Shown piece by piece: positions 19,467 through 62,210 of a DNA stretch of 64,000 bases (positions within the stretch are counted from its first letter, which is position 1; every line of letters starts with the position of its first letter). The position numbers and the translations under genes are program-made. This DNA comes from Bacteroidota bacterium (GTDB lineage Bacteria; Bacteroidota; Bacteroidia; B-17B0; Aurantibacillaceae). The DNA lies in the NCBI GenBank assembly GCA_029237825.1, contig JAQZBQ010000002.1, positions 310,001 to 374,000 on the forward strand, read 5' to 3'. The notes under the pieces are model-generated. The model worked only from the letters and a program-made list of their open reading frames with translations. It had not been told where the DNA came from and searched no databases.

Positions 19467-20696
19467 ATGCGAAAATTAAGAGCGACATATCACTTGTACG
19501 GATATCACCTTCCATTGTTGATCGCATTTTTATTGCCCTTTGGATTAAACTATTCTCCGTTAATTATTTTGTGGTCGCTTTCTTTTTTTGTGTTAGACGA
19601 TTTTAAGACCGGTTTGCGAAAAGTATTATCAAACGGATGGAGTTTCCTGTTGCTTACATTTTTCATGATTCATGTTGCTGGATATTTTTTCGCCGACAAC
19701 AAGGCAGAGGCCATAACTGCCATTGAAATTAAGTTATGTTTTCTTGCTTTTCCACTTTTAATTTATTCGTCATCCTATGAAAATCTTCAAGTAAAAAAAG
19801 TTTTTATTTCTTTCGTATCCGGCTGTGTTCTTGTTTGTTTATTTTATTTGTTCAGGGCTGGTTTTTTATATTTTTTCAACGATGTTAACGCATTTTACTA
19901 TACCGAATTCAGTTTTTTCATGCATCCTGGATATTTTTCTATGTATCTGGTATTCGCCCAATTAATTGTGATTATGTTTTATCCTGCATGGCTCAGGCAT
20001 TTATCCAATTTAAACGTAAAAATTGGATTTATATCGATACTTTTCATTACCTGTATCTTTTTATGTTCCTCAAAAATGGGTCTGCTATCTGCGTTGTTGT
20101 TAATCCCAATTACCATTTCTATTCTTTTATTTCGTTTGGGTTATAAAAAATTCATTGTTTTTTTTGCGAGTGCCGTTTTGTTAACCATCATGTTTTCTTA
20201 TCAATTTTTCCCAAAGCCCTTTGAAAGAATTACGCAGGCTGTAAGGGTAACTTCATCAGCAAAATCCATAGATAAGGCAGATGGAGAAAGTACTGCTGTA
20301 AGGATTTTGATCTGGAGGGAGTCCTTGAAAATCATTAAGGAGAATTTCATATTTGGAACTTCTCCCGGTGATGCAAATGATGCGTTAGTTCAGGCTTATA
20401 CAACCGAAGGAATGACTGGAGCTCTTGAAAAGAAATTGAATGCACACAATCAGTTTCTACAAACTTTTATTGGTACAGGTTTGATTGGTTTTATACTTCT
20501 ATGGTTATTTACATTTGGTGCATTCATTTACGCCATTATAAAGAAAAATTTTGCATTATCGTTGTTTAGTATATTAATTATCCTGAACTTTTTAATTGAA
20601 TCGATGTTGCAGGCGCAGGCTGGATTTTTGTTTTTTGTTTTTTTCTTTTGCTTTTTGACTCGTTATAATGTTCACAAATTAAATACTGAAGCATGA
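19467..20696 (+). CDS. O-antigen ligase/polymerase family membrane protein
   Basis: This 409-aa protein has about 11-12 hydrophobic segments and one large hydrophilic loop (about residues 245-330). The loop ends with LNAHNQFLQTFIGTGLIG (about 321-338), the H-N-x-[FY]-L signature of the Wzy/WaaL superfamily, whose His is needed for catalysis in WaaL ligases. The protein either polymerises repeat units or joins a finished glycan to a lipid or protein carrier. Because the locus exports through an ABC transporter, ligation is the more economical reading, but the sequence alone cannot separate the two. It overlaps the aminotransferase gene by 4 nt. Confidence 0.85.
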   Translation: MRKLRATYHLYGYHLPLLIAFLLPFGLNYSPLIILWSLSFFVLDDFKTGLRKVLSNGWSFLLLTFFMIHVAGYFFADNKAEAITAIEIKLCFLAFPLLIYSSSYENLQVKKVFISFVSGCVLVCLFYLFRAGFLYFFNDVNAFYYTEFSFFMHPGYFSMYLVFAQLIVIMFYPAWLRHLSNLNVKIGFISILFITCIFLCSSKMGLLSALLLIPITISILLFRLGYKKFIVFFASAVLLTIMFSYQFFPKPFERITQAVRVTSSAKSIDKADGESTAVRILIWRESLKIIKENFIFGTSPGDANDALVQAYTTEGMTGALEKKLNAHNQFLQTFIGTGLIGFILLWLFTFGAFIYAIIKKNFALSLFSILIILNFLIESMLQAQAGFLFFVFFFCFLTRYNVHKLNTEA

Positions 20697-21901
20697 TTCC
20701 TTTTTCTCCTCCCAGAATTGATGATAAAATAATAAATGAAGTTACTGCTGCTCTTAAATCCGGCTGGATTACTACAGGGCCCCGAACAAAAGAATTTGAA
20801 CGGAAAATTACAGAGTATTGCGGAAACAAAGCGACCTTATGTTTGAATTCAGCTACCGCCGGCCTGGAAATTATGTTAAGGTGGTTCGGTGTTGGAGAAG
20901 GCGATGAGGTGATTTTACCCGCGTACACGTATTCGGCAACGGCCAACGTCATCATACATTGCGGAGCTAAACCAGTTTTTGTGGATGTTAAAAGTGACGA
21001 TTTTAATATCAGTACAAGTAATATTGAGAAAGCGATCACCGAAAAAACAAAAGTGATTATGCCTGTGGATTTTGCCGGGTTTCCCTGCGACTACAGTGAA
21101 ATTAATGCTTTGGCAATAAAATATAAGTCACTTTTTAAAGCCAAATGCAGGAATCAGGAATTACTGGGTCGCATAATGGTGCTTTCAGATGCCGCTCATT
21201 CGTTTGGAGCGGAATATAATGGGCAAAAGTGCGGTTCGTTAACCGATGTGTCTGTTTTTTCTTTCCACGCCGTTAAGAATTTAACTACTGCGGAAGGGGG
21301 TGCGGTTGCATTGAATTTCCCTGAGCCTTTTGATAATACAGAGTTGTATAATTATTTGTGCATGTACACCTTGCATGGGCAGAATAAAGATGCCCTTGCC
21401 AAAACCCAAAAAGGAAATTGGAAGTATGACATCATTGAAGCGGGCTACAAATGTAATATGACTGATCTTTCAGCGGCGATTGGTTTGATAGAACTGGAGA
21501 GGTATGATTCGGATACCTTAATGAAACGAAAACACATCTTTGATGCTTATCAATCGGTATTTTCCGGAGATAAGCGATTTGAAATTCCTGTTTATGAAAC
21601 AGAAACTAAAACGGGCTGCTATCACTTATATCCACTAAGAATACGTGATGTTTCAGAAGGTCAACGGGACGCCATTATGAAAGAGATTTTTGAACAAGAC
21701 GTTTCAGTAAATGTTCATTTTATTCCTGTACCGGCAATGAGTTATTATAAAAATCTCGGTTATGATATGAAAAATTATCCGGTTACCTATGATAATTTCA
21801 GCAGGGAAATTTCGTTACCTGTGTTTTATAGTTTAACGGATGAGGATCTTCAGGTAGTCATCAAAGCTGTTATAAATTCGGTTAATAAAGTATTGTGTTA
21901 A
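20693..21901 (+). CDS. DegT/DnrJ/EryC1/StrS-family sugar aminotransferase
   Basis: This 402-aa PLP enzyme is expected to aminate a nucleotide-linked keto sugar. SDAAHSFGA (D166 binds the PLP ring nitrogen) and FHAVKNLTTAEGG with the Schiff-base lysine K195 are both present. The first 35 residues hold the family's FSPPRID and SGWITTGP motifs. The length is usual for ArnB/PseC-like enzymes. It directly precedes the gene for a small initiating sugar-phosphate transferase, a pairing often seen where a 4-amino sugar is the first sugar on undecaprenyl phosphate. No matching dehydratase lies nearby, so the keto substrate would come from elsewhere. Confidence 0.88.
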   Translation: MIPFSPPRIDDKIINEVTAALKSGWITTGPRTKEFERKITEYCGNKATLCLNSATAGLEIMLRWFGVGEGDEVILPAYTYSATANVIIHCGAKPVFVDVKSDDFNISTSNIEKAITEKTKVIMPVDFAGFPCDYSEINALAIKYKSLFKAKCRNQELLGRIMVLSDAAHSFGAEYNGQKCGSLTDVSVFSFHAVKNLTTAEGGAVALNFPEPFDNTELYNYLCMYTLHGQNKDALAKTQKGNWKYDIIEAGYKCNMTDLSAAIGLIELERYDSDTLMKRKHIFDAYQSVFSGDKRFEIPVYETETKTGCYHLYPLRIRDVSEGQRDAIMKEIFEQDVSVNVHFIPVPAMSYYKNLGYDMKNYPVTYDNFSREISLPVFYSLTDEDLQVVIKAVINSVNKVLC

Positions 21902-48571: not shown

Positions 48572-49780
48572 ATGCCTGGAACTGAATTATTTGGCGCAGA
48601 AGAGCGCAAGGAGATCGAAGACGTATTATCTACTGGTGTATTGTTTCGATACAATCATGATGCGCTACGAAATAACCACTGGAAAGCTAAAGACTTTGAG
48701 AATGAAGTGAAAAAAATAACCGGTGCAAAGTTTGCTCATGCCATGAGTAGTGGTTCAACAGCTGTTGCAACTGCCCTCGCAGCCAGTGGAATCGGTACAG
48801 GTGATGAAGTTATTGTTCCACCTTTTACATTTATGGCAACCATTGAAGCCGTGTTATTTGTGGGCGCTTTGCCTGTATTTGCTGAAATTGATGAAACCCT
48901 GTGTTTAAGTGCGGAAGGAATAAAAAAAGCCATCACGCCTAAAACCAAAGCCGTTTGTCTGGTGCACATGTGCGGCGGAATGGCGGATATGGATCCGATT
49001 ATGAAAGTGATAAGTGACCATAATTTAATTTTGGTAGAAGATGCCGGACAATCTTTTTCCTCATCCTATAAAGGAACTTCAACCGGTTTATTCGGCAAAG
49101 CAGGATGTTATTCGTTTGATTTCTTTAAAATTGCTACTGCCGGTGAAGGTGGTGTGATGGTAACAAATGACGAAACTACTTATAAGAAAGCAGATGTATA
49201 TAGCGATCACGGTCATGATCATATTGGCGCTGTCCGCGGCATGGAACAACATCCTTACCTTGGTTTCAATTACCGCATTTCTGAATTGCATGCGGCTGTT
49301 GGCGTTGCTCAAACTCGCCGGGTTCCTCAGATAAAAGAAAAGAACCGTGCCAACAAGAAGATGCTTATTGAGTTACTTTCCAAAACGCCTGGAGTTTCGT
49401 TTGCACGATTACCAGACCCTGAAGGCGATTCAGCAACTTGTTTGAATCTGTTATTGCCGGATACAGCAACAGCTCAGCGCGTAGTGGATGAGATGAAAGC
49501 AGCCGGGGTAGCCGGATTCGATTACTGGTTTAAAAACATGTATCATTTTATCAATCAGTGGGATCATATTAAGGAAATGCGAACAGTTTCTAAATTACCA
49601 ATTGAAATACTGGGCGCCCCACAAGATTACAAGAACTTACATTTACCTAAAACACAGGAAACCATTGGTCGCTTAATTTCATTTGGAATTAAATACAAAT
49701 GGACTGAAGAAGATATGCGCACCCTCGCCGGTAAAATATCTGAATGTGTTACGAAAGCTCTTAAAACTGAAAACGTCTGA
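48572..49780 (+). CDS. kdnA: 8-amino-3,8-dideoxy-manno-octulosonate transaminase
   Basis: This 402-aa DegT-family PLP enzyme is assigned as KdnA, which aminates the C8 aldehyde of oxidised Kdo with glutamate to give Kdo8N. D157 in VEDAGQSF and the Schiff-base K186 in SFDFFKIATAGEGG are in place. The assignment rests on the direct neighbours: a KdnB-type alcohol dehydrogenase starts on the last base of its stop codon, and kdsA follows. Alone, the protein could be any sugar aminotransferase. The N-terminal region TGVLFRYNHDA (residues 21-31) lacks the usual GxWxTxG motif seen in the other DegT protein of this window, in line with an unusual substrate. Confidence 0.85.
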   Translation: MPGTELFGAEERKEIEDVLSTGVLFRYNHDALRNNHWKAKDFENEVKKITGAKFAHAMSSGSTAVATALAASGIGTGDEVIVPPFTFMATIEAVLFVGALPVFAEIDETLCLSAEGIKKAITPKTKAVCLVHMCGGMADMDPIMKVISDHNLILVEDAGQSFSSSYKGTSTGLFGKAGCYSFDFFKIATAGEGGVMVTNDETTYKKADVYSDHGHDHIGAVRGMEQHPYLGFNYRISELHAAVGVAQTRRVPQIKEKNRANKKMLIELLSKTPGVSFARLPDPEGDSATCLNLLLPDTATAQRVVDEMKAAGVAGFDYWFKNMYHFINQWDHIKEMRTVSKLPIEILGAPQDYKNLHLPKTQETIGRLISFGIKYKWTEEDMRTLAGKISECVTKALKTENV

Positions 49781-50862
49781 TGCTTCATAAAAATTTTAAA
49801 AACATTGATAAGGTAACCTACGGACGCGGATCTTTTTACCAATTGGCTGAAACAGTTGAGCCGATCCGTAAAGAGAATAAAAATTATTTTGTGTACGTTG
49901 TCGACAATTATTTCAAGGGGAAAAAACTTTCTGATAACTTACAGAATAAGCCCGAAGATCTGATTTTTTACATCGACGTTGATCCACACGAACCTACGAC
50001 AGAACAAATTGATACACTGAGGGACGAAATTCTTTCAAAAAAAGGATTACCAAGTGGAGTCATCGGGATTGGTGGCGGAAGCATCATGGATATTGCAAAG
50101 GCCTTATCATTGATGTTAACAAATGAAGGTTCTTCTACGTTATATCAGGGCTTAAACCTTGTGAAAAAACCGGGAGTTTATCATTTAGGTGTGCCAACAA
50201 TTTCCGGTACGGGTGCAGAAGTTTCTATGACAGCTGTACTTACTGGCCCTGAAAAAAAACTTGGACTGAAATGTGATTGGACTGTGTTTAACCAGGTTAT
50301 TCTGGATCCTGAGTTAATTGCTTCTGTACCAACAGACTGGTGGTTTTATACAGGAATGGATACTTATATCCATTGCATTGAATCTGAAACGGGAATCCGA
50401 AATAACGCTTTCAGTCTTGCCTACGGAGAACAGTCTCTGAAGTTATGCCGCGAAATTTATTTGGGTGACAATGCCGGCCGCACGCCTGAAAACGATGATA
50501 AATTGATGGTGGCCTCATTGATGGGAGGTTTAAGTTTAACGTACAGTGAAGTAGGGGCTTGTCATGCCATCAGCTATGGATTGTCAAAAATCCTGGGAAC
50601 CCGTCATTGTTACGCAAACTGCATCATTTTTCAGCATCTAGGAGATATTTACCAGAAAGGTCATGGAGAGTTTATGGATATGATCAAAAAGCATAATATT
50701 GTTTTGCCTCAAAATTTAAGTAAAGATTGGAGTGAAGAAACGATTACTGCCATGGCAACTGTTTCCTATAATTTACCCTTTATGTGGAACCACGCATTTG
50801 GAGATAATTACAAAGAAATTGCCACGATGGACTACATTAAAGGGTTATTCAGAAGACTTTAG
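49780..50862 (+). CDS. kdnB: 3-deoxy-manno-octulosonate 8-oxidase (iron-type alcohol dehydrogenase)
   Basis: This 360-aa protein belongs to the iron-dependent alcohol dehydrogenase family. GIGGGSIMDIAKAL at residues 96-109 binds the nucleotide; VPTISGTGAEVS near 138-149 is the family motif. Metal ligands are expected at D194 and H198 in GMDTYIHCIES, in GACHAISYG (near 265) and in MWNHAFGDNY near 335. In the Kdo8N pathway KdnB oxidises the C8 hydroxyl of Kdo to an aldehyde for KdnA. The 1-nt overlap with kdnA supports joint function, since the unstable aldehyde must pass directly to the transaminase. Confidence 0.85.
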   Translation: MLHKNFKNIDKVTYGRGSFYQLAETVEPIRKENKNYFVYVVDNYFKGKKLSDNLQNKPEDLIFYIDVDPHEPTTEQIDTLRDEILSKKGLPSGVIGIGGGSIMDIAKALSLMLTNEGSSTLYQGLNLVKKPGVYHLGVPTISGTGAEVSMTAVLTGPEKKLGLKCDWTVFNQVILDPELIASVPTDWWFYTGMDTYIHCIESETGIRNNAFSLAYGEQSLKLCREIYLGDNAGRTPENDDKLMVASLMGGLSLTYSEVGACHAISYGLSKILGTRHCYANCIIFQHLGDIYQKGHGEFMDMIKKHNIVLPQNLSKDWSEETITAMATVSYNLPFMWNHAFGDNYKEIATMDYIKGLFRRL

Positions 50863-50929
50863 AATAAAATATAAATTCCGTTTGTAATTGAGAGTCGTTT
50901 TCAATCGTTGCGGTTAAAAATATAATACA

Positions 50930-51760
50930 ATGAAAAAGAAGATAGTAAAAGTTGGAAATATTGAATGTGGAACAGATGATTTGTTTCTTATTTCCGGGCC
51001 GTGTGTCATTGAAGAAGAAAGTATCATGATGAAAACCGCGGAGAAACTGAAAGAGGTTTCGGAACGGTTAAATATTAAAGTAATTTATAAATCGTCATTT
51101 ACAAAAGATAATCGAAGTAGCCTAAGCTATTACAAGGGGCCTGGACTAGCAAAGGGATGTGAACTATTAGCTAAAATTAGGTCTCAGTTCGGGTTTCCGA
51201 TATTAACGGATATCCATTCACACGATCAGGCTGCAGCAGCCGGTGAAGTAGTAGATGTGTTACAAATTCCCGCGTATTTGTGCATGCAAACTTCGTTATT
51301 GGAAGCGTCTGCAAAAACAGGGCGGGTAATCAACATTAAGCACGGGCAGTTTCTTGCTCCGGATAATATGAAACATCCTGCTCAAAAATGTGTTGATGCA
51401 GGTAACGATCAAATTATTTTAACCGAGCGCGGTTACGTATTTGGTTACAACGACCTGATTGTGGATCCACGTGCCTTTTACCACATGAACAATATTGGGT
51501 ACCCTGTTGTATTTGATGTCACGCATTGTGTCCGCAAATACGGTATTCCTAGTTCAGATAAAAAGGGCGGAGCTCGTGAGTTCTTGCCTGTTCTTGCAAG
51601 GGCTGGTGTGGCAAGCGGAATTGATGGAATGTTCATTGAAACACATCCTGATCCCGAAAAGGCATTATGCGATGCTGCTTCTCAATTATGTGTTAATGAT
51701 CTGGAAGAATTTTTAAAACCAATTATTGAACTGCATCAAGTAGAAGTTAAATACAGATAA
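50930..51760 (+). CDS. kdsA: 3-deoxy-8-phosphooctulonate (Kdo 8-phosphate) synthase
   Basis: This 276-aa TIM-barrel enzyme condenses phosphoenolpyruvate with arabinose 5-phosphate to form Kdo 8-phosphate. SGPCVIEEES at residues 22-31, KSSFTKDNRSS near 57-67 and KGPGLAKGCELL near 72-83 are diagnostic. C25 in GPCVIE marks the metal-dependent class; E. coli-type enzymes have Asn there. FDVTHCVRKYG near 196-206 contributes further metal ligands. The gene follows kdnB after 67 nt, so the enzyme that starts Kdo synthesis is encoded beside those that modify Kdo. kdsB, kdsC and kdsD are not in the window. Confidence 0.95.
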   Translation: MKKKIVKVGNIECGTDDLFLISGPCVIEEESIMMKTAEKLKEVSERLNIKVIYKSSFTKDNRSSLSYYKGPGLAKGCELLAKIRSQFGFPILTDIHSHDQAAAAGEVVDVLQIPAYLCMQTSLLEASAKTGRVINIKHGQFLAPDNMKHPAQKCVDAGNDQIILTERGYVFGYNDLIVDPRAFYHMNNIGYPVVFDVTHCVRKYGIPSSDKKGGAREFLPVLARAGVASGIDGMFIETHPDPEKALCDAASQLCVNDLEEFLKPIIELHQVEVKYR

Positions 51761-51777
51761 TCCCTAAATCTATACTC

Positions 51778-52182
51778 ATGAAAAAATTTGTTTTATTTAT
51801 TGCCGCAGGCTTTTTCTGCTCAACAATGTCGGCGCAAAGCCTTTACATTAACGGAAGTAAAAAAGGAGAAATTGAGTCTGATGGAGATGTTTACATTGGT
51901 GGATCCAGGAAAGGCCAGATTGAGTCCGATGGTGATGTTTATGTGAACGGATCCAAGAAGGGACAGATTGAAAGTGACGGAGATATTTATTTAAATGGAA
52001 GTAAAGTTGGGCAGATTGAAAGCGATGGTGACGTATATAAAAACGGTTCAAAAATCGGTCAAATAGAATCGGATGGAGACATCTACAAGAATGGATCAAA
52101 AATCGGTGATTGTAAAGGAGTGAAAAAGGAATGGGTTGGTGCAGTTGTTTTCTTTTTCTTCATAGAAGATTTAGCATATTAA
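51778..52182 (+). CDS. small secreted protein made of 16-residue repeats
   Basis: This 134-aa protein has a signal peptide (residues 1-19, cleavage near SAQS) and six units with a strict 16-residue period: Tyr at 23, 39, 55, 71, 87 and 103 starts each unit of the form Y-x-N-G-S-K-x-G-Q-I-E-S-D-G-D-x. The last unit is cut short (NGSKIGDCKG), and a hydrophobic tail WVGAVVFFFF (119-128) ends the protein. The regular beta-turn pattern suggests a closed or fan-like all-beta structure. I recall similar short repeat proteins in Bacteroidota described as a beta-flower fold; I could not verify this. It starts 17 nt after kdsA. Its function is unknown. Confidence 0.8.
   Translation: MKKFVLFIAAGFFCSTMSAQSLYINGSKKGEIESDGDVYIGGSRKGQIESDGDVYVNGSKKGQIESDGDIYLNGSKVGQIESDGDVYKNGSKIGQIESDGDIYKNGSKIGDCKGVKKEWVGAVVFFFFIEDLAY
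51844..52119 (+). repeat. 48-bp in-frame tandem repeats
   Basis: Six units begin at 51844, 51892, 51940, 51988, 52036 and 52084. The bases differ mostly at third codon positions while the amino acids are held, so selection acts on the protein and the repeats are not recent slippage copies. Confidence 0.85.
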
Positions 52183-54487: not shown

Positions 54488-57400
54488 TTACTTCACTTTC
54501 GAGAGAAGTGTGATATGACCGGTTTTTATAACCATCTGTCCCGACATAGCTTTCACTTCAGCCTGATAAATGTATACACCCTGCTCGCAGAGTTGTCCTT
54601 TATGCTTACCATCCCAACCTGTGCTTTCACCATTACTTTCAAAAATCTTTTCTCCCCAGCGATTAAAGATGGTGAGCTTAATTTCCGCAATCCCAAAACC
54701 CATCGGAATAAATACTTCATTGTTTAAATCTCCGTTAGGCGTGAATGCATTTGGAATATATACGTCCCAGTTCTTTGTAACAGTAATACAAACAACATCT
54801 TTATTTTTACAGCCTTCAGGTGAAATCCCCTCTAATGTGTAGCATGTATTTTCCTGGGGGTTTACCGTTACAGTTGGACAATAATTGCAATCAAACGGCA
54901 CGCCCGTAGACGATGCGATAAATCCAACAGCAGTATTTCCGGTTCCATTTAATGTAATAACATTGTCGATGTTGATTGTGCTATCCTGTCCGGCAGTTAA
55001 TACAGGTAGCGCGTTAATTGTTATTTGAACAGTTGCTGTACTCGAACAATTATTTTTTGTTCCTGTTACTGTGTAAACCGTTATTCCGAAACCAGGCGGG
55101 TACACAGTGGTTGTTGAATCGTGAACCTCATCAACCCCTATAAAAGGACTCCACGTATAAGTAGTTGCTCCGGTGGCATAAATCACGGTGGATTGTCCCT
55201 CGCAAATAATCGGGTTTGGTCCCGGAATTATTACAGGTAAAGGAGTAACAGCAACCTGAACGGTTTTGGAATCCACGCAACCAAATACAGGCGGGCCGTT
55301 TGTTCCTGTTACAGTATACGTTATGGTTGTAGATGGACTGACTACAGTAATATTGGAGGTTGGGCTGCTCACCGAAGATGGTGACCAGCTGTATGTAGTA
55401 GCCCCGTGAGCTATTAATGTAGCGCTTACCCCAGCGCAAACAACAGATGAGCTGGATAATGCAGAAAGCGTCGGAGTTGGAATCACGAATACCTCTAACG
55501 TAGTTGTATTAACGCAGCCTAATGGAGAGGCACCTGTCACTGTATAAACTTCTGTCGATGGCGGAGTGGATACAACATTTGAAGATGTCGCGGTATTTAA
55601 ATGTATTGCCGGGCTCCACGTGTAAGTGTCAGCTCCGCTTGCCGAGATGGACGCTGATTGAGTTGAACAAATTGATTGCGAGTTAGCTGAAATTGTAGGG
55701 TTTACCGTTACGGTAATCGCGATCTCTTCAGTATCAAAACAGTCACTATTGGCTCCCACTATCGTGTAGGTTTGAGTAGTTGCTGGAGAAGAAATAACAA
55801 CAGATCCGGTATTGGAACTTAAACCAGTAGATGGCGACCATGAATAATTTGTTGCTCCAGTCGCCGTAAGTGTTGCGGAAGAAGCCGGACATATAATTGT
55901 TGATGATGAGTTTACGCTTAGTGTTGGTGTTGTTACAACAGTAATTGATGTTACAGAGGTGTTGATGCATGAGTTTTGGTCAGTACCGCTAACCGTGTAA
56001 GTTTCTGTTACATTGGTGGTTGATGTAACAAAACTCCCTGTTTGACTGCTTAAGTTGATTGCAGGTGTCCACGTATAGCTTTCTGCTCCCGCCGCTGTCA
56101 AAGATCCGGTTGTGCCTGAGCACATGCTAAAATTAGGTGAACTCGTGACATTTGGTAAGGCGTTCACATTTACCGTTGTTGTCGATGAATTAATGCAACC
56201 GTTCAGATCGGTTCCGATAACTGTATACGTTGTGGTTATTGATGGTGAGGCAATAACACTGGCGCCATTAACACTGCTTAATGATGTGTTCGGACTCCAG
56301 GTATAGGTTGCGGCTCCCGAAGATGAGATTTCACCGCTCGATCCTAAACAAACCGTATTACTTGTTGCTGTAAGGATTGGGAGGTTATTTACTGTCACAC
56401 TTGTTGTAGTGGTGTTTGCACATCCATTCGTATCAGTTCCAGTAACGCTGTATGTGGAAGTTAGTGTGGGAGTGGCAATAACGGTTGCCCCGTTAGTACT
56501 ATTTAAAAAAGATGAGGGAGTCCAAGTGTAGGTATCACCTCCATTTGCGGTTAATGCACCGCTAAGCCCAATACAAATTGTATTGCCTGTAGCGGTAATA
56601 AGCGGCAAAGGATTTACTACAATTGATGCTGTTGTTGAATCAACACAACCATTCAGGTCTGTAGCGGTAACCGTATAAGTACTCGTTACCGTAGCAGTAG
56701 TTATAACAGATGAACCCAAATCCGTATTTAAATCTGCGCCGGGATTCCACGTATAGGAGTCAGCACCCGTCACGCTCAGGGTAGCGGATGATCCTATACA
56801 CAAAGTATTGTTTGTTGAAGATAATAATGGTAAAGGGTTTACAACGGCCGCAACAGTGGATGTATTCAGACAGCCATTTAAATCTGTCCCTGAAATGGTG
56901 TAGGTTGTTGTGATTGTCGGATTGGCAGAAACGGTGGCGCCCGTGGAAGCGTTAAGTGAAATAGAAGGACTCCAGCTGAATGTGTCCGCACCGGAAGCAT
57001 TTAGCGTTACTGCCTGCCCAAAGCACATCGTATCACTTAACGAAACAATGACAGGCAAGGGATTCACCATTACACTTGTAGTATTCGAATTTACGCATCC
57101 GTTTATGTCTGTTCCGGTAACCGTATAATCCGTTGTAACTAGAGGGCTGGAAATAACTGTAGGTGTTGTAGTTATGTTTAAGGACGCTCCAGGTTGCCAG
57201 GAATAGGATGTTGCGCCCGAAGCATTCAGGGAAACATTTCCCCCTTCACAGATGGTGCCGGAAGACACGGAAATAGCGGGTAATGGATTTATTTGAACGT
57301 AAGACGTATCCTGTGCTACACAGGTATTTCGATTAACAGTTACAATATAACTATGAGAAAGCGGGGCAGACGTTGCATTTATACCAGTAATTATTGGATT

Positions 57401-60400
57401 GGACGAGGTCGGTGAATTTAAATCTGTTGAAGGCGACCATGAATACGTATATCCGTTAATGGCGTTATAACCTAAAGACCCGGTTTGCCCGGCACAAATC
57501 ACTGTATCGGTTGCAAAATTTTTAAGTGGGATATTTAAAGTTAGTTGCGACGGTGTACACGAGCAATTGTTGAATGCAGTATCCAAAACAGCTATTACAT
57601 GGCAAGCCGCGCCCGAAGGGATGTTTAACGTATAGGAATAGGAATAGGACCCATTGCTGGGAACCGTAATGCTGGCTGTATGTTGTGATATAAGTATATC
57701 CCCGGCATTGTAAACGCCATTAGAATTTACATCGTTATAGTAGCTGATCACAGTTGGGTTACTGGCATTTAATGTTTCGCCAGTGTTATTGATTGTGAAA
57801 TTAATGAACGCTGTTTCCCCCGAAGGCGGATTTGGTATGGAATACCCGCTGGCATTGGAAAGAGCCAGGTAACTTTTGTAAGTAAATATTGGTAAGGTGT
57901 CACCGCCCGTTATTACGTTTACACCACACAAACTTCCGGATAACGTGCAAAGTAATTCCGAACTGCTGGTAGTCTTAGCCTCAAAATTTGATATATTACA
58001 ATTTAATACACTTGGATCGCCAGAATAGCTAACATTGAATACTGTACTATCGCCGGTAGTTACACCCGGAGGAAGTTTCCATGTTAAGTGCTGTTGGTTA
58101 TTATAGAACGAAATTGCGGGAATACTGTTGCCTGGAAAATTATGTATGCCATTAAAGGACCCAGGGACATATGATACACCTGGTGGCAATGTAACCTGAA
58201 TGGAATCGGTATTGCCAAAAGACATACCTCCTAAATTTTCGGAGTATATTTTTAAAACAGAATTATTACTACAAGGTGAAATGTATGTACTTTTTAAAAT
58301 CGTATTTGTAAAATAGGGTGCGGAAGCTCCAGTAATTCCTAATTGTGAGGATAGGGACACCAGCTGGCCCGTTGAACCTCCACAACCACTCACTCCGAAA
58401 AAGCTAAAACTTGCAAGGCTTCCGGACGTGTAACCGCACGTGGTGCGGACTTTAAACTTTATTTTAACAGCGTTTTCACCTACATTAAGTATTCCAGGCA
58501 TTCCATTTAATCCAATACTTGGAGATAAAACAGAAATATTGTATTGATAAATTGTTCCACCCACATAAACCGGGTCGCTTACGGTTACATACGGACTGGC
58601 GATTGGATATGATAACTGCGAACTTCCGGAAACTATATTTACTCCTAATGGAAGATTAACACTAACGGTCAGGTTATATACACTTCCTAATTGAACGTTG
58701 GTTCCAATAACCTCATAAGATGCCGTATCACAAAGGTTGACCACCGTTGGCGGTGTGATGACGGTTGTTAGCAGTAAAGGCGTTTGAGGAGTTTCTTTCA
58801 ATGTGATCTTTTTTGTGACACAGGGATAGGCTGCAAGATTTGCCGGATATCCCTGGCAGTTCCAGCCGGCATGAACAGTAATACTATCCTGGAAGCATGA
58901 TGTATAACTTCCATACAACCTGTAATTTTTGAGTGCGCCACCAGGTAAGGTACCTAGCTGATAGATCCCACCTACCGGTGTCACAGTTGCGTTTGAAGCC
59001 AGGTCTACCACTGTGTTGATCGTTAAACCGGAAATAGTAGGCGCAGAAATCCAGGTATTAAAAGCTGAAGGGGTCGAAATATTTGACAAAGAGATGTCCC
59101 AGGTTACCACGTTGGTTGTGGCGTTTACATTTGGAAGTACCGACTGTAAGAAGATGTTGGGTCCGCTGTACGTTATCTGGTCCTGATTCGGGACATTTGA
59201 AGTATTTAAAGCCGTGGACTGGGGTAGAAACGCACTGGGTTTAAAAGTCCAGTTATAACCAATATCCTGCGCCACATTTTGCACTACTGCGCAACTAGGC
59301 TCAAGAGTGGCGGTAAGAACTCCATAGAACCCATCGTCACTTGGTATAATAGGGTTTGCAACGCTACTCGAGTAATATGTTCCCACAGGAAATTTCAGAC
59401 TCGGTCCGGAAGGGTTTATCGGAGTTAGTGTAAAGGTCGCCGAGGAGGAACCGGCGAACGTCCCTGCGGTTCGCACTTCGGCAAACTGCGCTGCGATATA
59501 GCGATATCCAATTGGTGGAACGATTTCCAGTGTATCTATTTTCGCCCAGTTCCTGTATTCGTATGGAAAGAGATTTCCTCCCGCATAATTACTGCAACAC
59601 GGCCCTATGGATAAATAGTAATTTTGTGAAATGGTTATCCGGTCACAATTGTTCACACTGTAACTATCCGGACCGTAATTTGTATAGTAATATCCGATTA
59701 TGGAAAAGTTTCCATCAAAACTATTACACGAAAAAATATTTGATGCGTTTGTAGGCGAAGCTATATCTGACACTACAAACGTATTGGTTGCTGCAGCAGG
59801 AATAATTGCCCCACCAATATTGGTTGTTACACGATACTGAGGTTCAAAAACCAGTGAATCGTTATTCTGAAAAACAAATCCTGTATTCACTCCTCCGGTT
59901 GTAATCAATGCAGCAGAACTCAAGTCATATTTAAAAGTAGCGGCCGGTAATACTGCAGCCACCCCTGGAATATTACAAGTGGCAAAAAGCGGTAAACCAG
60001 GCCCGCGGTAAATTCTTAATTTACCCCCAATCGCTGTAAGGTTGTTGCCGTTACTAATCGTTGAGCTTGCATAACAAAATTGCCAAGTAGGATGTGAAGC
60101 GCTTGTCTTAATGGTTCCGTAAAAACTTGATGTGATGGTATCACCGTACATGGCTCTTGATCTTTTAATTTTAGAAAAATCAAGTGTACCAGCACCGTCT
60201 GGTAGCCCATCGTCATTATTATCCGGAAGTCCGTAACTTGTTCGTCGAATGGAATAGTCACGAAAATTCAACCCCTCACAGGTTACAGGACAAACCAGGT
60301 TAAGATTGAAATTATTTGTAATTAAGAGCATTTCACATGTGCAGGATGCAGAAGGCGAATAATAAATTCCCACCCCAATTGTCCCAGGTCCACTCACGCA

Positions 60401-62074
60401 GGATGTACAATTACCTGTTAAATCAATTAATAGCTGAGCTTGCTCCAAAGACGAATACATGGTACTGTTAAAAGGTGGGCTACCAGTAAACATTGCCGTT
60501 ATCACATTTCCTACTTGATTTATCGATGCGGGAAGAAAAGTAGCTGTTCCCACACTATTTACTATTTTAAGTGTATTGGGAGCATAATTGTAGCAAGGTA
60601 AAATGGTGAATGTTACTTTTACATAGGCATCGGCAAGGGCAGGGGAGCTATTATAAACACCATTCAATAAAAAATTAAATGTGCTTGTTTGTCCGGAAGA
60701 AATTGTAGATGGTGACCCGTTATTGATAAGATTGAAGATATAATTTTGGTTATATACCCTTCCCCAGGCTGCAGGGACCACATAGTTATTGAGGCAGATA
60801 CTTTGATAACTAGCAGAATACGCCCAGCCATTATAATAGCCGTAACCTGTTTGACAACAACTCTGTGTATTCCAACTGATGCGTACAGTGTCTCCTGGAT
60901 TGATTGTGGGGATTGTTAAATCAACTGCTCCGATTGGAGCAGACGAGAGGCAGGGAGCTGAATTGCATGCAGAAACGGAAGTAGCAGCTAATGGATTCGC
61001 AGCACCATTATTCACTTTAATGGTAATGCTTGAAACATTAATTTCAGTTTGCTGCGCCGGATCATAATAAGTTGGGCCGGAAGTCTGGTAGATTTTTAAA
61101 AGGGTATTTATTGCCTGGCCCGCTCCAGTATTTACGATCACAAGGGTTTGTTGACTTAAATTTCCCACCCCCAAACATACGTTTGCTGTTGGCTGTGGAG
61201 TAATAACTAGATTAGGAACAAAATTTGGAAATACTACGTTGGCAGTTGAAACAGAAGTTTGACACGCTTGAGAGTTACATCCCCATGATGCTTCATAAGA
61301 AGAAAAAACCGAAGAGCAGTTATTAATGGTTACGGTTTCACAGATTGTTATACTTTCACCGGTTTCAAAAAATGCATTTCCATTACCAATATTTACAAAT
61401 TCAGTGGCCGTGAGTACGTAAGTTTCTGTTCCAGGAATACTTGTCCAGCTACCAGGTGTTGCCGCTGTTAGGGTGATTCCGTTGCCATGATTATCTGTTA
61501 ATGAAAACGTACTCAATTCTCCGGTACCACCATTTGTAATCGTAATGCATCTTGTATAGCTGGCACCAATAGCTCCGTTATATGATTGATTGGTAACTGA
61601 AGTAATTGACACATTTGGTTGTTTCACAATAAACACCTGAGTAGTATGTGTGTCGAAGCAAAGTGTGCTATTTGCAGTATAATTTACCTTGATCTGGTTT
61701 TCGGTGGGTAATCCAAGGCTTAAATAATTTAATATTTCGCAGTTGGCCGAAGCGGTGTAGGTAACCACAATAGATGAATTTGCCGGAATATTAGCGAGAG
61801 TGAAAACTGGTGTATTAGTCGCTGTACCAGAGGAAAATGTGGCATTTGTTACCGACCCGATCTGGTAATTCAGTCCGGCTGGCATGGTTAAATCAACAGA
61901 AACAGCGGTCAGGTTAAAGGCTGAAGGATTATTGATGGTGAATGAAAACAATTTGCCCTGACCGCATACGGTAACATCTGACGGCACAACGGATGAAATA
62001 GTGATATAACCTCCGGTTGAAAAGACATTAACAGAAAAGAACAAGGAAATAAGGAAAAAGTAAATTTTCTTCAT
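54488..62074 (-). CDS. giant repeat surface protein with type IX secretion C-terminal domain
   Basis: From the ATG at 62074 this protein has 2528 residues (the frame extends 7 codons further to a TTG). A signal peptide (KKIYFFLISLFFSVNVFS) starts it. Residues about 20-1520 are beta-rich DUF11/conserved-repeat-like domains with a calcium-loop-like DNNDDGLPDG near 625. Residues about 1521-2435 hold 11 clear and one degraded Ig/PKD-like repeat of 74-79 residues. The last 93 residues (IPNAFTPNGDLNNEVF ... IFNRWGEKIFES ... GWDGKHKGQ) form the gliding-motility-associated C-terminal domain used as a type IX (type B) sorting signal. It should be an exported adhesin or cell-surface filament. Its neighbour is gldD. 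Confidence 0.92.
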   Translation of the reverse strand: MKKIYFFLISLFFSVNVFSTGGYITISSVVPSDVTVCGQGKLFSFTINNPSAFNLTAVSVDLTMPAGLNYQIGSVTNATFSSGTATNTPVFTLANIPANSSIVVTYTASANCEILNYLSLGLPTENQIKVNYTANSTLCFDTHTTQVFIVKQPNVSITSVTNQSYNGAIGASYTRCITITNGGTGELSTFSLTDNHGNGITLTAATPGSWTSIPGTETYVLTATEFVNIGNGNAFFETGESITICETVTINNCSSVFSSYEASWGCNSQACQTSVSTANVVFPNFVPNLVITPQPTANVCLGVGNLSQQTLVIVNTGAGQAINTLLKIYQTSGPTYYDPAQQTEINVSSITIKVNNGAANPLAATSVSACNSAPCLSSAPIGAVDLTIPTINPGDTVRISWNTQSCCQTGYGYYNGWAYSASYQSICLNNYVVPAAWGRVYNQNYIFNLINNGSPSTISSGQTSTFNFLLNGVYNSSPALADAYVKVTFTILPCYNYAPNTLKIVNSVGTATFLPASINQVGNVITAMFTGSPPFNSTMYSSLEQAQLLIDLTGNCTSCVSGPGTIGVGIYYSPSASCTCEMLLITNNFNLNLVCPVTCEGLNFRDYSIRRTSYGLPDNNDDGLPDGAGTLDFSKIKRSRAMYGDTITSSFYGTIKTSASHPTWQFCYASSTISNGNNLTAIGGKLRIYRGPGLPLFATCNIPGVAAVLPAATFKYDLSSAALITTGGVNTGFVFQNNDSLVFEPQYRVTTNIGGAIIPAAATNTFVVSDIASPTNASNIFSCNSFDGNFSIIGYYYTNYGPDSYSVNNCDRITISQNYYLSIGPCCSNYAGGNLFPYEYRNWAKIDTLEIVPPIGYRYIAAQFAEVRTAGTFAGSSSATFTLTPINPSGPSLKFPVGTYYSSSVANPIIPSDDGFYGVLTATLEPSCAVVQNVAQDIGYNWTFKPSAFLPQSTALNTSNVPNQDQITYSGPNIFLQSVLPNVNATTNVVTWDISLSNISTPSAFNTWISAPTISGLTINTVVDLASNATVTPVGGIYQLGTLPGGALKNYRLYGSYTSCFQDSITVHAGWNCQGYPANLAAYPCVTKKITLKETPQTPLLLTTVITPPTVVNLCDTASYEVIGTNVQLGSVYNLTVSVNLPLGVNIVSGSSQLSYPIASPYVTVSDPVYVGGTIYQYNISVLSPSIGLNGMPGILNVGENAVKIKFKVRTTCGYTSGSLASFSFFGVSGCGGSTGQLVSLSSQLGITGASAPYFTNTILKSTYISPCSNNSVLKIYSENLGGMSFGNTDSIQVTLPPGVSYVPGSFNGIHNFPGNSIPAISFYNNQQHLTWKLPPGVTTGDSTVFNVSYSGDPSVLNCNISNFEAKTTSSSELLCTLSGSLCGVNVITGGDTLPIFTYKSYLALSNASGYSIPNPPSGETAFINFTINNTGETLNASNPTVISYYNDVNSNGVYNAGDILISQHTASITVPSNGSYSYSYTLNIPSGAACHVIAVLDTAFNNCSCTPSQLTLNIPLKNFATDTVICAGQTGSLGYNAINGYTYSWSPSTDLNSPTSSNPIITGINATSAPLSHSYIVTVNRNTCVAQDTSYVQINPLPAISVSSGTICEGGNVSLNASGATSYSWQPGASLNITTTPTVISSPLVTTDYTVTGTDINGCVNSNTTSVMVNPLPVIVSLSDTMCFGQAVTLNASGADTFSWSPSISLNASTGATVSANPTITTTYTISGTDLNGCLNTSTVAAVVNPLPLLSSTNNTLCIGSSATLSVTGADSYTWNPGADLNTDLGSSVITTATVTSTYTVTATDLNGCVDSTTASIVVNPLPLITATGNTICIGLSGALTANGGDTYTWTPSSFLNSTNGATVIATPTLTSTYSVTGTDTNGCANTTTTSVTVNNLPILTATSNTVCLGSSGEISSSGAATYTWSPNTSLSSVNGASVIASPSITTTYTVIGTDLNGCINSSTTTVNVNALPNVTSSPNFSMCSGTTGSLTAAGAESYTWTPAINLSSQTGSFVTSTTNVTETYTVSGTDQNSCINTSVTSITVVTTPTLSVNSSSTIICPASSATLTATGATNYSWSPSTGLSSNTGSVVISSPATTQTYTIVGANSDCFDTEEIAITVTVNPTISANSQSICSTQSASISASGADTYTWSPAIHLNTATSSNVVSTPPSTEVYTVTGASPLGCVNTTTLEVFVIPTPTLSALSSSSVVCAGVSATLIAHGATTYSWSPSSVSSPTSNITVVSPSTTITYTVTGTNGPPVFGCVDSKTVQVAVTPLPVIIPGPNPIICEGQSTVIYATGATTYTWSPFIGVDEVHDSTTTVYPPGFGITVYTVTGTKNNCSSTATVQITINALPVLTAGQDSTINIDNVITLNGTGNTAVGFIASSTGVPFDCNYCPTVTVNPQENTCYTLEGISPEGCKNKDVVCITVTKNWDVYIPNAFTPNGDLNNEVFIPMGFGIAEIKLTIFNRWGEKIFESNGESTGWDGKHKGQLCEQGVYIYQAEVKAMSGQMVIKTGHITLLSKVK
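54770..57511 (-). repeat. array of about 12 Ig/PKD-like repeats in the giant protein
   Basis: Each unit of about 75 residues follows the plan C-x-G, then GA-x-x-Y-x-W-x-P, then T-x-T-Y-T-V-x-G-T-D, N-G-C and a closing V-N-P-L-P. Eleven units fit and the one nearest the C-terminus is degraded. At the DNA level the units are far less alike than at the protein level, which indicates age. Confidence 0.88.
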
Positions 62075-62210
62075 AGTACTTAATTTTAGATGCAAGGGAT
62101 TACCTAAAACTAAATATAAACAGGTTTTTGATGATTTTTAAGTTGGAATTTCAATTATTATTTTGTATGCTCAATTGAACCGACAGTGATATAAATGGAT
62201 ACTAGCTTAA

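Follow-up and report, generated by a model that had tools for sequence, protein, structure and literature searches.

The window analysed here, a 64-kb stretch of DNA, carries three consecutive genes on its plus strand. The first, kdnA (48572-49780), encodes a 402-aa DegT-family PLP-dependent aminotransferase, assigned by phmmer, identity and a tree; the second, kdnB (49780-50862), encodes a 360-aa Kdo 8-oxidase of the group III (iron-type) alcohol dehydrogenase family, assigned by phmmer and identity; and the third, kdsA (50930-51760), encodes a 276-aa Kdo 8-phosphate synthase of the Cys (metal-dependent) type. Kdo is the sugar through which lipid A is attached to the remainder of the lipopolysaccharide (LPS) of the outer membrane. 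The kdnA stop codon TGA (49778-49780) and the kdnB start codon ATG (starting at 49780) overlap by 1 nt in the plus-strand sequence TGATG (49778-49782), coupling the two genes, and kdsA begins on the same strand after a gap of 67 nt from the kdnB stop. Both the three-gene layout and the overlap had been described in an initial annotation of this DNA, and both were reproduced to the nucleotide. Scans of the region for sigma-70 promoters and terminators gave matches no more often than chance, and were uninformative as to whether the genes form an operon.

In phmmer searches, the window KdnA matched Shewanella KdnA (PDB 5k8b) with 436.5 bits over residues 1-383, the next DegT family in the PDB scoring 168.8 bits, and its full-length identity to this Shewanella oneidensis enzyme is 49.9%. 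Lys186, the predicted PLP lysine, and Asp157, the PLP-binding Asp, are kept in 97 of 97 KdnA rows. We placed these 97 KdnA-like rows, which include the Shewanella and window sequences, in a quick tree with five other DegT enzymes: E. coli ArnB, E. coli WecE, a PseC-like enzyme from the window, 7b0m and 7l7x. The KdnA rows split from all five with 100% support, measured by SH-aLRT without bootstrap and across long outgroup branches. ArnB and PseC-type aminotransferases, whose substrates are nucleotide-linked C4 keto sugars, have the fold, the PLP chemistry and a role in envelope sugars in common with the window KdnA, but they fall outside the fully supported KdnA clade, and we therefore rejected an ArnB/PseC-like identity for the window transaminase. 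The tree that the initial annotation had proposed as a check thus groups the enzyme with Shewanella KdnA and away from PseC/ArnB-like enzymes. We conclude that its identification as KdnA is well supported, and transamination of 8-oxo-Kdo is its predicted reaction. There are two lineages within the KdnA tree, and the window sequence belongs to a subclade that is sister to that of Shewanella. In lineage 1 the window sequence is joined by 71 further rows, almost all from Bacteroidota, with one record labelled Ignavibacteriales; lineage 2 comprises Shewanella, records labelled Desulfobacterota or Myxococcota, one Cloacimonadota record and flavobacteria. As a separate observation, most genomes of one further family (f19; G010, G015, G020 and others) have a KdnA-like transaminase of 36-45% identity; nearly all of these carriers are without KdnB, and G145, G169 and G311 also have a diverged KdnB.

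KdnB has been placed in the family FeADH3/cd08184 (PMC5125639). The window KdnB matched PDB 5k8c with 403 bits by phmmer (52% identity), and the next non-KdnB enzyme reached 85.5 bits; this comparison sets aside 3rf7, an iron-containing alcohol dehydrogenase that matches the window protein as well as 5k8c does and that looks like another KdnB. The metal ligands Asp194, His198, His262 and His276 are present and conserved in no fewer than 117 of 118 KdnB rows; a GGGS/T nucleotide-loop motif lies at residues 98-101. Oxidation of Kdo at C8 is the predicted reaction of this enzyme. Matches to the Shewanella enzymes of known structure over the whole protein length, together with the KdnA tree, bear out the KdnA/KdnB identities originally given to the pair. 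In the 2013 work of Gattis et al., KdnB was reportedly dependent on O2 and metal. Records under the names of Desulfobacterota, Myxococcota and Cloacimonadota also carry kdnAB (loci L114-L136). Several of these organisms are presumably anaerobic, which does not fit a strict need of KdnB for O2. The records with names of sulfate reducers and those of Cloacimonadota suggest that O2 is perhaps not the oxidant of KdnB everywhere, and raise the question of which oxidant serves in these groups. A diverged KdnB (41%) is encoded near kdsB at locus L052 (G118:C1), in a genome without KdnA whose KdsB has Gly at the residue discussed below.

KdsA scores over both NCBIfam equivalog cut-offs (NF003543, 353.6 versus 242 bits; TIGR01362, 335.1 versus 314 bits), and its GPCVIE motif has Cys where the metal-independent type, also seen among the sequences compared, has Asn, in agreement with the class first assigned to it. 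In this genome, which is 99.7% complete, the KdsA of the kdn unit is the sole KdsA over the cut-off, the other match being far below at 60.8 bits. There is likewise one KdsB over the cut-off, and one WaaA. The kdsB gene is on another contig (C22:77535-78233) and not in the kdn cluster, to which it is linked in many relatives; a second match in the KdsB search is weak and NeuA-like. Given that there is one KdsA, all Kdo 8-phosphate should come from the kdn unit, and given that there is one KdsB, all CMP-sugar should come from a KdsB with the lineage-1 residue described below. The single KdsA, KdsB and WaaA make it plausible that most or all Kdo is converted, as the initial annotation had suggested, and full replacement of Kdo by 8-amino-3,8-dideoxy-Kdo (Kdo8N) in the window bacterium is likewise plausible.

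Near these genes in several genomes we noted a protein of ~340 aa in which a transaldolase/fructose-6-phosphate-aldolase domain is fused to two CBS domains. Its gene adjoins kdsA and kdsC, is found downstream of kdsA in many loci, and lies, for example, at L059:11634-12641 and, in the window genome, at L361:1480-2592 (G000:C27). The CBS part resembles that of KdsD. KpsF/KdsD over the cut-off was not found in the window genome or in ten other searched genomes, and at least ten of these 11, the window genome included, carry the transaldolase-CBS protein; G551 has both. This protein may stand in for arabinose-5-phosphate isomerase; one possible route would be the aldol addition of glycolaldehyde to glyceraldehyde 3-phosphate.

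We propose, with a probability of about 0.82, that kdnA-kdnB-kdsA is a dedicated supply line for Kdo8N. In the predicted pathway, KdsA would form Kdo 8-phosphate by condensing arabinose 5-phosphate with PEP, and free Kdo would be released by a KdsC-type phosphatase whose gene lies elsewhere in the genome. KdnB would then oxidise the C8 hydroxyl of Kdo to an aldehyde, and KdnA would transaminate the resulting 8-oxo-Kdo to Kdo8N. The genome's single KdsB would activate Kdo8N to CMP-Kdo8N, from which the single WaaA would transfer it to lipid A, leaving the inner core positively charged at C8.

Across 395 Bacteroidota genomes, KdnA and KdnB were found in the same 26 and neither was found elsewhere, at thresholds (KdnB, E <1e-100; KdnA, E <1e-110) that were set post hoc in clear gaps of the score lists (Fisher's p ~3e-41, uncorrected for relatedness). 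The two genes are often unlinked, and are far apart in many flavobacteria; in all eight genomes with a KdnA locus that lacks kdnB, kdnB is found elsewhere. We conclude from this that the co-occurrence is more than mere linkage. We considered that most flavobacterial KdnB might occur without KdnA, and rejected this, since KdnA is encoded elsewhere in those genomes. Within one flavobacterial family, for which one genome was sampled per genus, KdnA is present in 99 of 149 genera, and a scan with the KdnA alignment yielded at least 580 KdnA relatives in GTDB genomes. The initial annotation had implied that the pair is rare. This did not hold: kdnAB is widespread in the phylum Bacteroidota, and the pair is also present in records of four further phyla, namely Desulfobacterota, Myxococcota, Ignavibacteriota and Cloacimonadota.

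We counted gene orders in 80 loci kept among the at least 580 KdnA relatives listed. The gene kdsA directly follows kdnB in 25 of the 38 lineage-1 loci with enough downstream DNA and in none of the 11 lineage-2 loci, such that kdsA linkage marks one of the two KdnA lineages. Because this order recurs so often in related loci, and because the kdn pair co-occurs, we do not regard the kdnA-kdnB-kdsA arrangement as due to chance. Seven loci have waaA-kdnA-kdnB-kdsA followed by kdsB; one of these was read throughout, and there kdsA and kdsB are separated by a transaldolase-CBS gene and a diverged kdsC. Lineage-2 Bacteroidota have kdnA-kdsB-kdnB, with waaA ahead in two cases. Moreover, several flavobacteria (L025, L334-L338) encode KdsB-KdnB fusion proteins of 614-638 aa, and a long frame of this type is present in ~15 of the 149 genera of the sampled family. 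Linkage to kdsA, kdsB, kdsC and waaA and fusion to KdsB support the conclusion that KdnA and KdnB belong to the Kdo pathway, and together with the co-occurrence they favour the Kdo-pathway reading with which the analysis began.

We compared KdsB from genomes with kdnAB (kdn+) and genomes without (kdn-) over 239 columns. A single column stood out, corresponding to position 231 of the window-genome KdsB (L002 ORF), two residues before the Asp of (I/V)DTPED. With numbering counted from the 1vh1 alignment, this is Gly233 of E. coli KdsB, near Asp235, a catalytic, Mg-binding residue. In this first set, kdn- sequences have G, S, A, P, N or D, lineage 2 and Shewanella have Glu in 22 of 23 cases, and lineage 1 has Cys in 13 of 17. 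Position 231, chosen on the first set, was then tested on 80 new flavobacterial KdsB sequences: all 40 kdn+ sequences have Glu, and among the kdn- sequences 32 have G, 3 have S and 5 have Glu; of these last, three come from genomes only 75-84% complete and two from complete genomes. Combining the sets, Glu is found in 62/80 kdn+ and 5/142 kdn- sequences, and Cys in 13/80 and 0/142. At this position, where Shewanella has Glu, the window-genome KdsB has Cys231; Cys here was confined to kdn+ genomes. A correlated-evolution likelihood test, run on the best KdsB tree, which was built without column 231, gave an LR of 51 for Glu, with 4 extra parameters; the LR was 62 when Glu and Cys were scored together, and none of 23 other kdn+-enriched columns exceeded 16.7. 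Only 3 to 5 well-supported independent contrasts were available; every one pointed the expected way, but they are too few for significance (p above 0.1). Because Ser occurs in both kdn+ and kdn- KdsBs, the signal in lineage 1 is not as clear-cut as that of Glu. We infer that position 231 lies near C8 of the sugar, where Glu would pair with the ammonium group, and it is possible that this position is a specificity switch for Kdo8N. A point against the Kdo8N reading is that the two complete kdn- genomes keep Glu. The residue offers a direct and cheap handle on substrate specificity.

Other explanations must be weighed against a dedicated supply line. Its own weak points are that the window KdnA and KdnB are only ~50% identical to the Shewanella enzymes, with KdnA in a sister clade, and that the KdsB has Cys rather than Glu and is unlinked to kdnAB. 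The latter facts bear on the strongest alternative, to which we assign roughly a one-in-three chance: that KdnAB make Kdo8N from only part of the Kdo pool, giving a mixed LPS, perhaps regulated or limited by O2. KdnAB act on free Kdo and would compete with KdsB for it, a KdsB with Cys at the putative switch residue may accept both sugars, and in many genomes kdsB and kdsA are apart from kdnAB. However, the coupling of kdnAB with the genome's only kdsA, and the change of the KdsB residue in all kdn lineages, both suggest a committed pathway. It is improbable that the product, Kdo8N or another 8-amino ulosonic acid, serves a capsule or O-chain instead of being the lipid A-proximal sugar. A large polysaccharide cluster does lie ~24 kb upstream (window 191-24000), but the unit adjoins kdsA, those of relatives adjoin waaA, kdsC and kdsB, no kdn unit among the loci read is in a glycosyltransferase cluster, and the genome has one KdsB over the cut-off beside the weak, NeuA-like match. 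Finally, although both folds are used in many pathways and neither KdnA nor KdnB has an equivalog model in NCBIfam, a different role for the pair, such as in a nucleotide-sugar or aliphatic amine pathway, is very improbable given score gaps of >260 bits to the next family, the KdnA tree, the strict co-occurrence, the linkage to Kdo genes and the KdsB fusion.

The S. oneidensis unit kdnA-kdnB-kdsB was reportedly characterised by Gattis et al. in 2013 and Zachman-Brockmeyer et al. in 2016, works to which PMC5125639 and PMC5036845 refer (KdnA, 5k8b; KdnB, 5k8c). The window shares with it an orthologous transaminase and oxidase, the kdnA-kdnB order, the catalytic residues and linkage to a Kdo pathway gene. 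This gene is kdsA in the window, whereas in Shewanella it is kdsB; the window KdnA belongs to a sister clade (~50% identity), and the window-genome KdsB is encoded elsewhere and has Cys, not Glu, two residues before the catalytic Asp. The flavobacterial kdnA-kdsB-kdnB loci and KdsB-KdnB fusions (L040, L044, L049, L051, L025, L334-L338) combine both enzymes with KdsB in the same phylum as the window; unlike the window, they have a KdnA of the Shewanella-side lineage and Glu in KdsB, and kdnA is often distant from kdsB-kdnB. In the 2013 work, the deletion strain was reportedly more sensitive to polymyxin and bile salts, with which the initial proposal that Kdo8N could lower affinity for cationic antimicrobials would agree.

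Kdo has been regarded as an almost universal first sugar of the core, and Kdo8N as a hallmark of Shewanella (PMC6357163, PMC3210612), where it replaces Kdo (PMC3210612). We found no report of Kdo8N (or synonyms) in Bacteroidota in the open-access literature searched, which counts against the proposal, though few core structures of these groups exist. We regard the gene set as real and unremarkable in appearance, with a well-supported predicted function. The Kdo8N pathway is known; what is new, with respect to the literature that could be searched, is its spread in Bacteroidota, the kdsA-linked order, the KdsB-KdnB fusion and the change at the KdsB residue. A broader reading, to which we give slightly less than even odds, is that Kdo8N is a widespread lipid A-proximal sugar in Bacteroidota rather than peculiar to Shewanella, fully replacing Kdo in the window lineage, with KdsB specificity switched by the one residue at position 231 (Glu in one lineage, Cys in the other, and a small residue in users of Kdo). 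Should these genes function in the predicted way, much of a major environmental phylum would have an outer membrane built on aminated Kdo, with a changed inner-core charge and consequences for Kdo-azide labelling, for antibody and detection assays that rely on Kdo and for how LPS structures of Bacteroidota are interpreted.

Elsewhere in the window, the polysaccharide cluster contains an ABC exporter pair and many glycosyltransferases, and also the PseC-like DegT transaminase (20693-21901), which scores below the PseC cut-off. Immediately after kdsA, positions 51778-52182 encode a small secreted repeat protein with GSKxGQIESDGD units (PF21785, 5-fold beta-flower). Further downstream, the minus strand encodes a repetitive surface protein of 2535 aa (54488-62095), whose C-terminal region resembles, by eye, a gliding/type IX secretion sorting domain.
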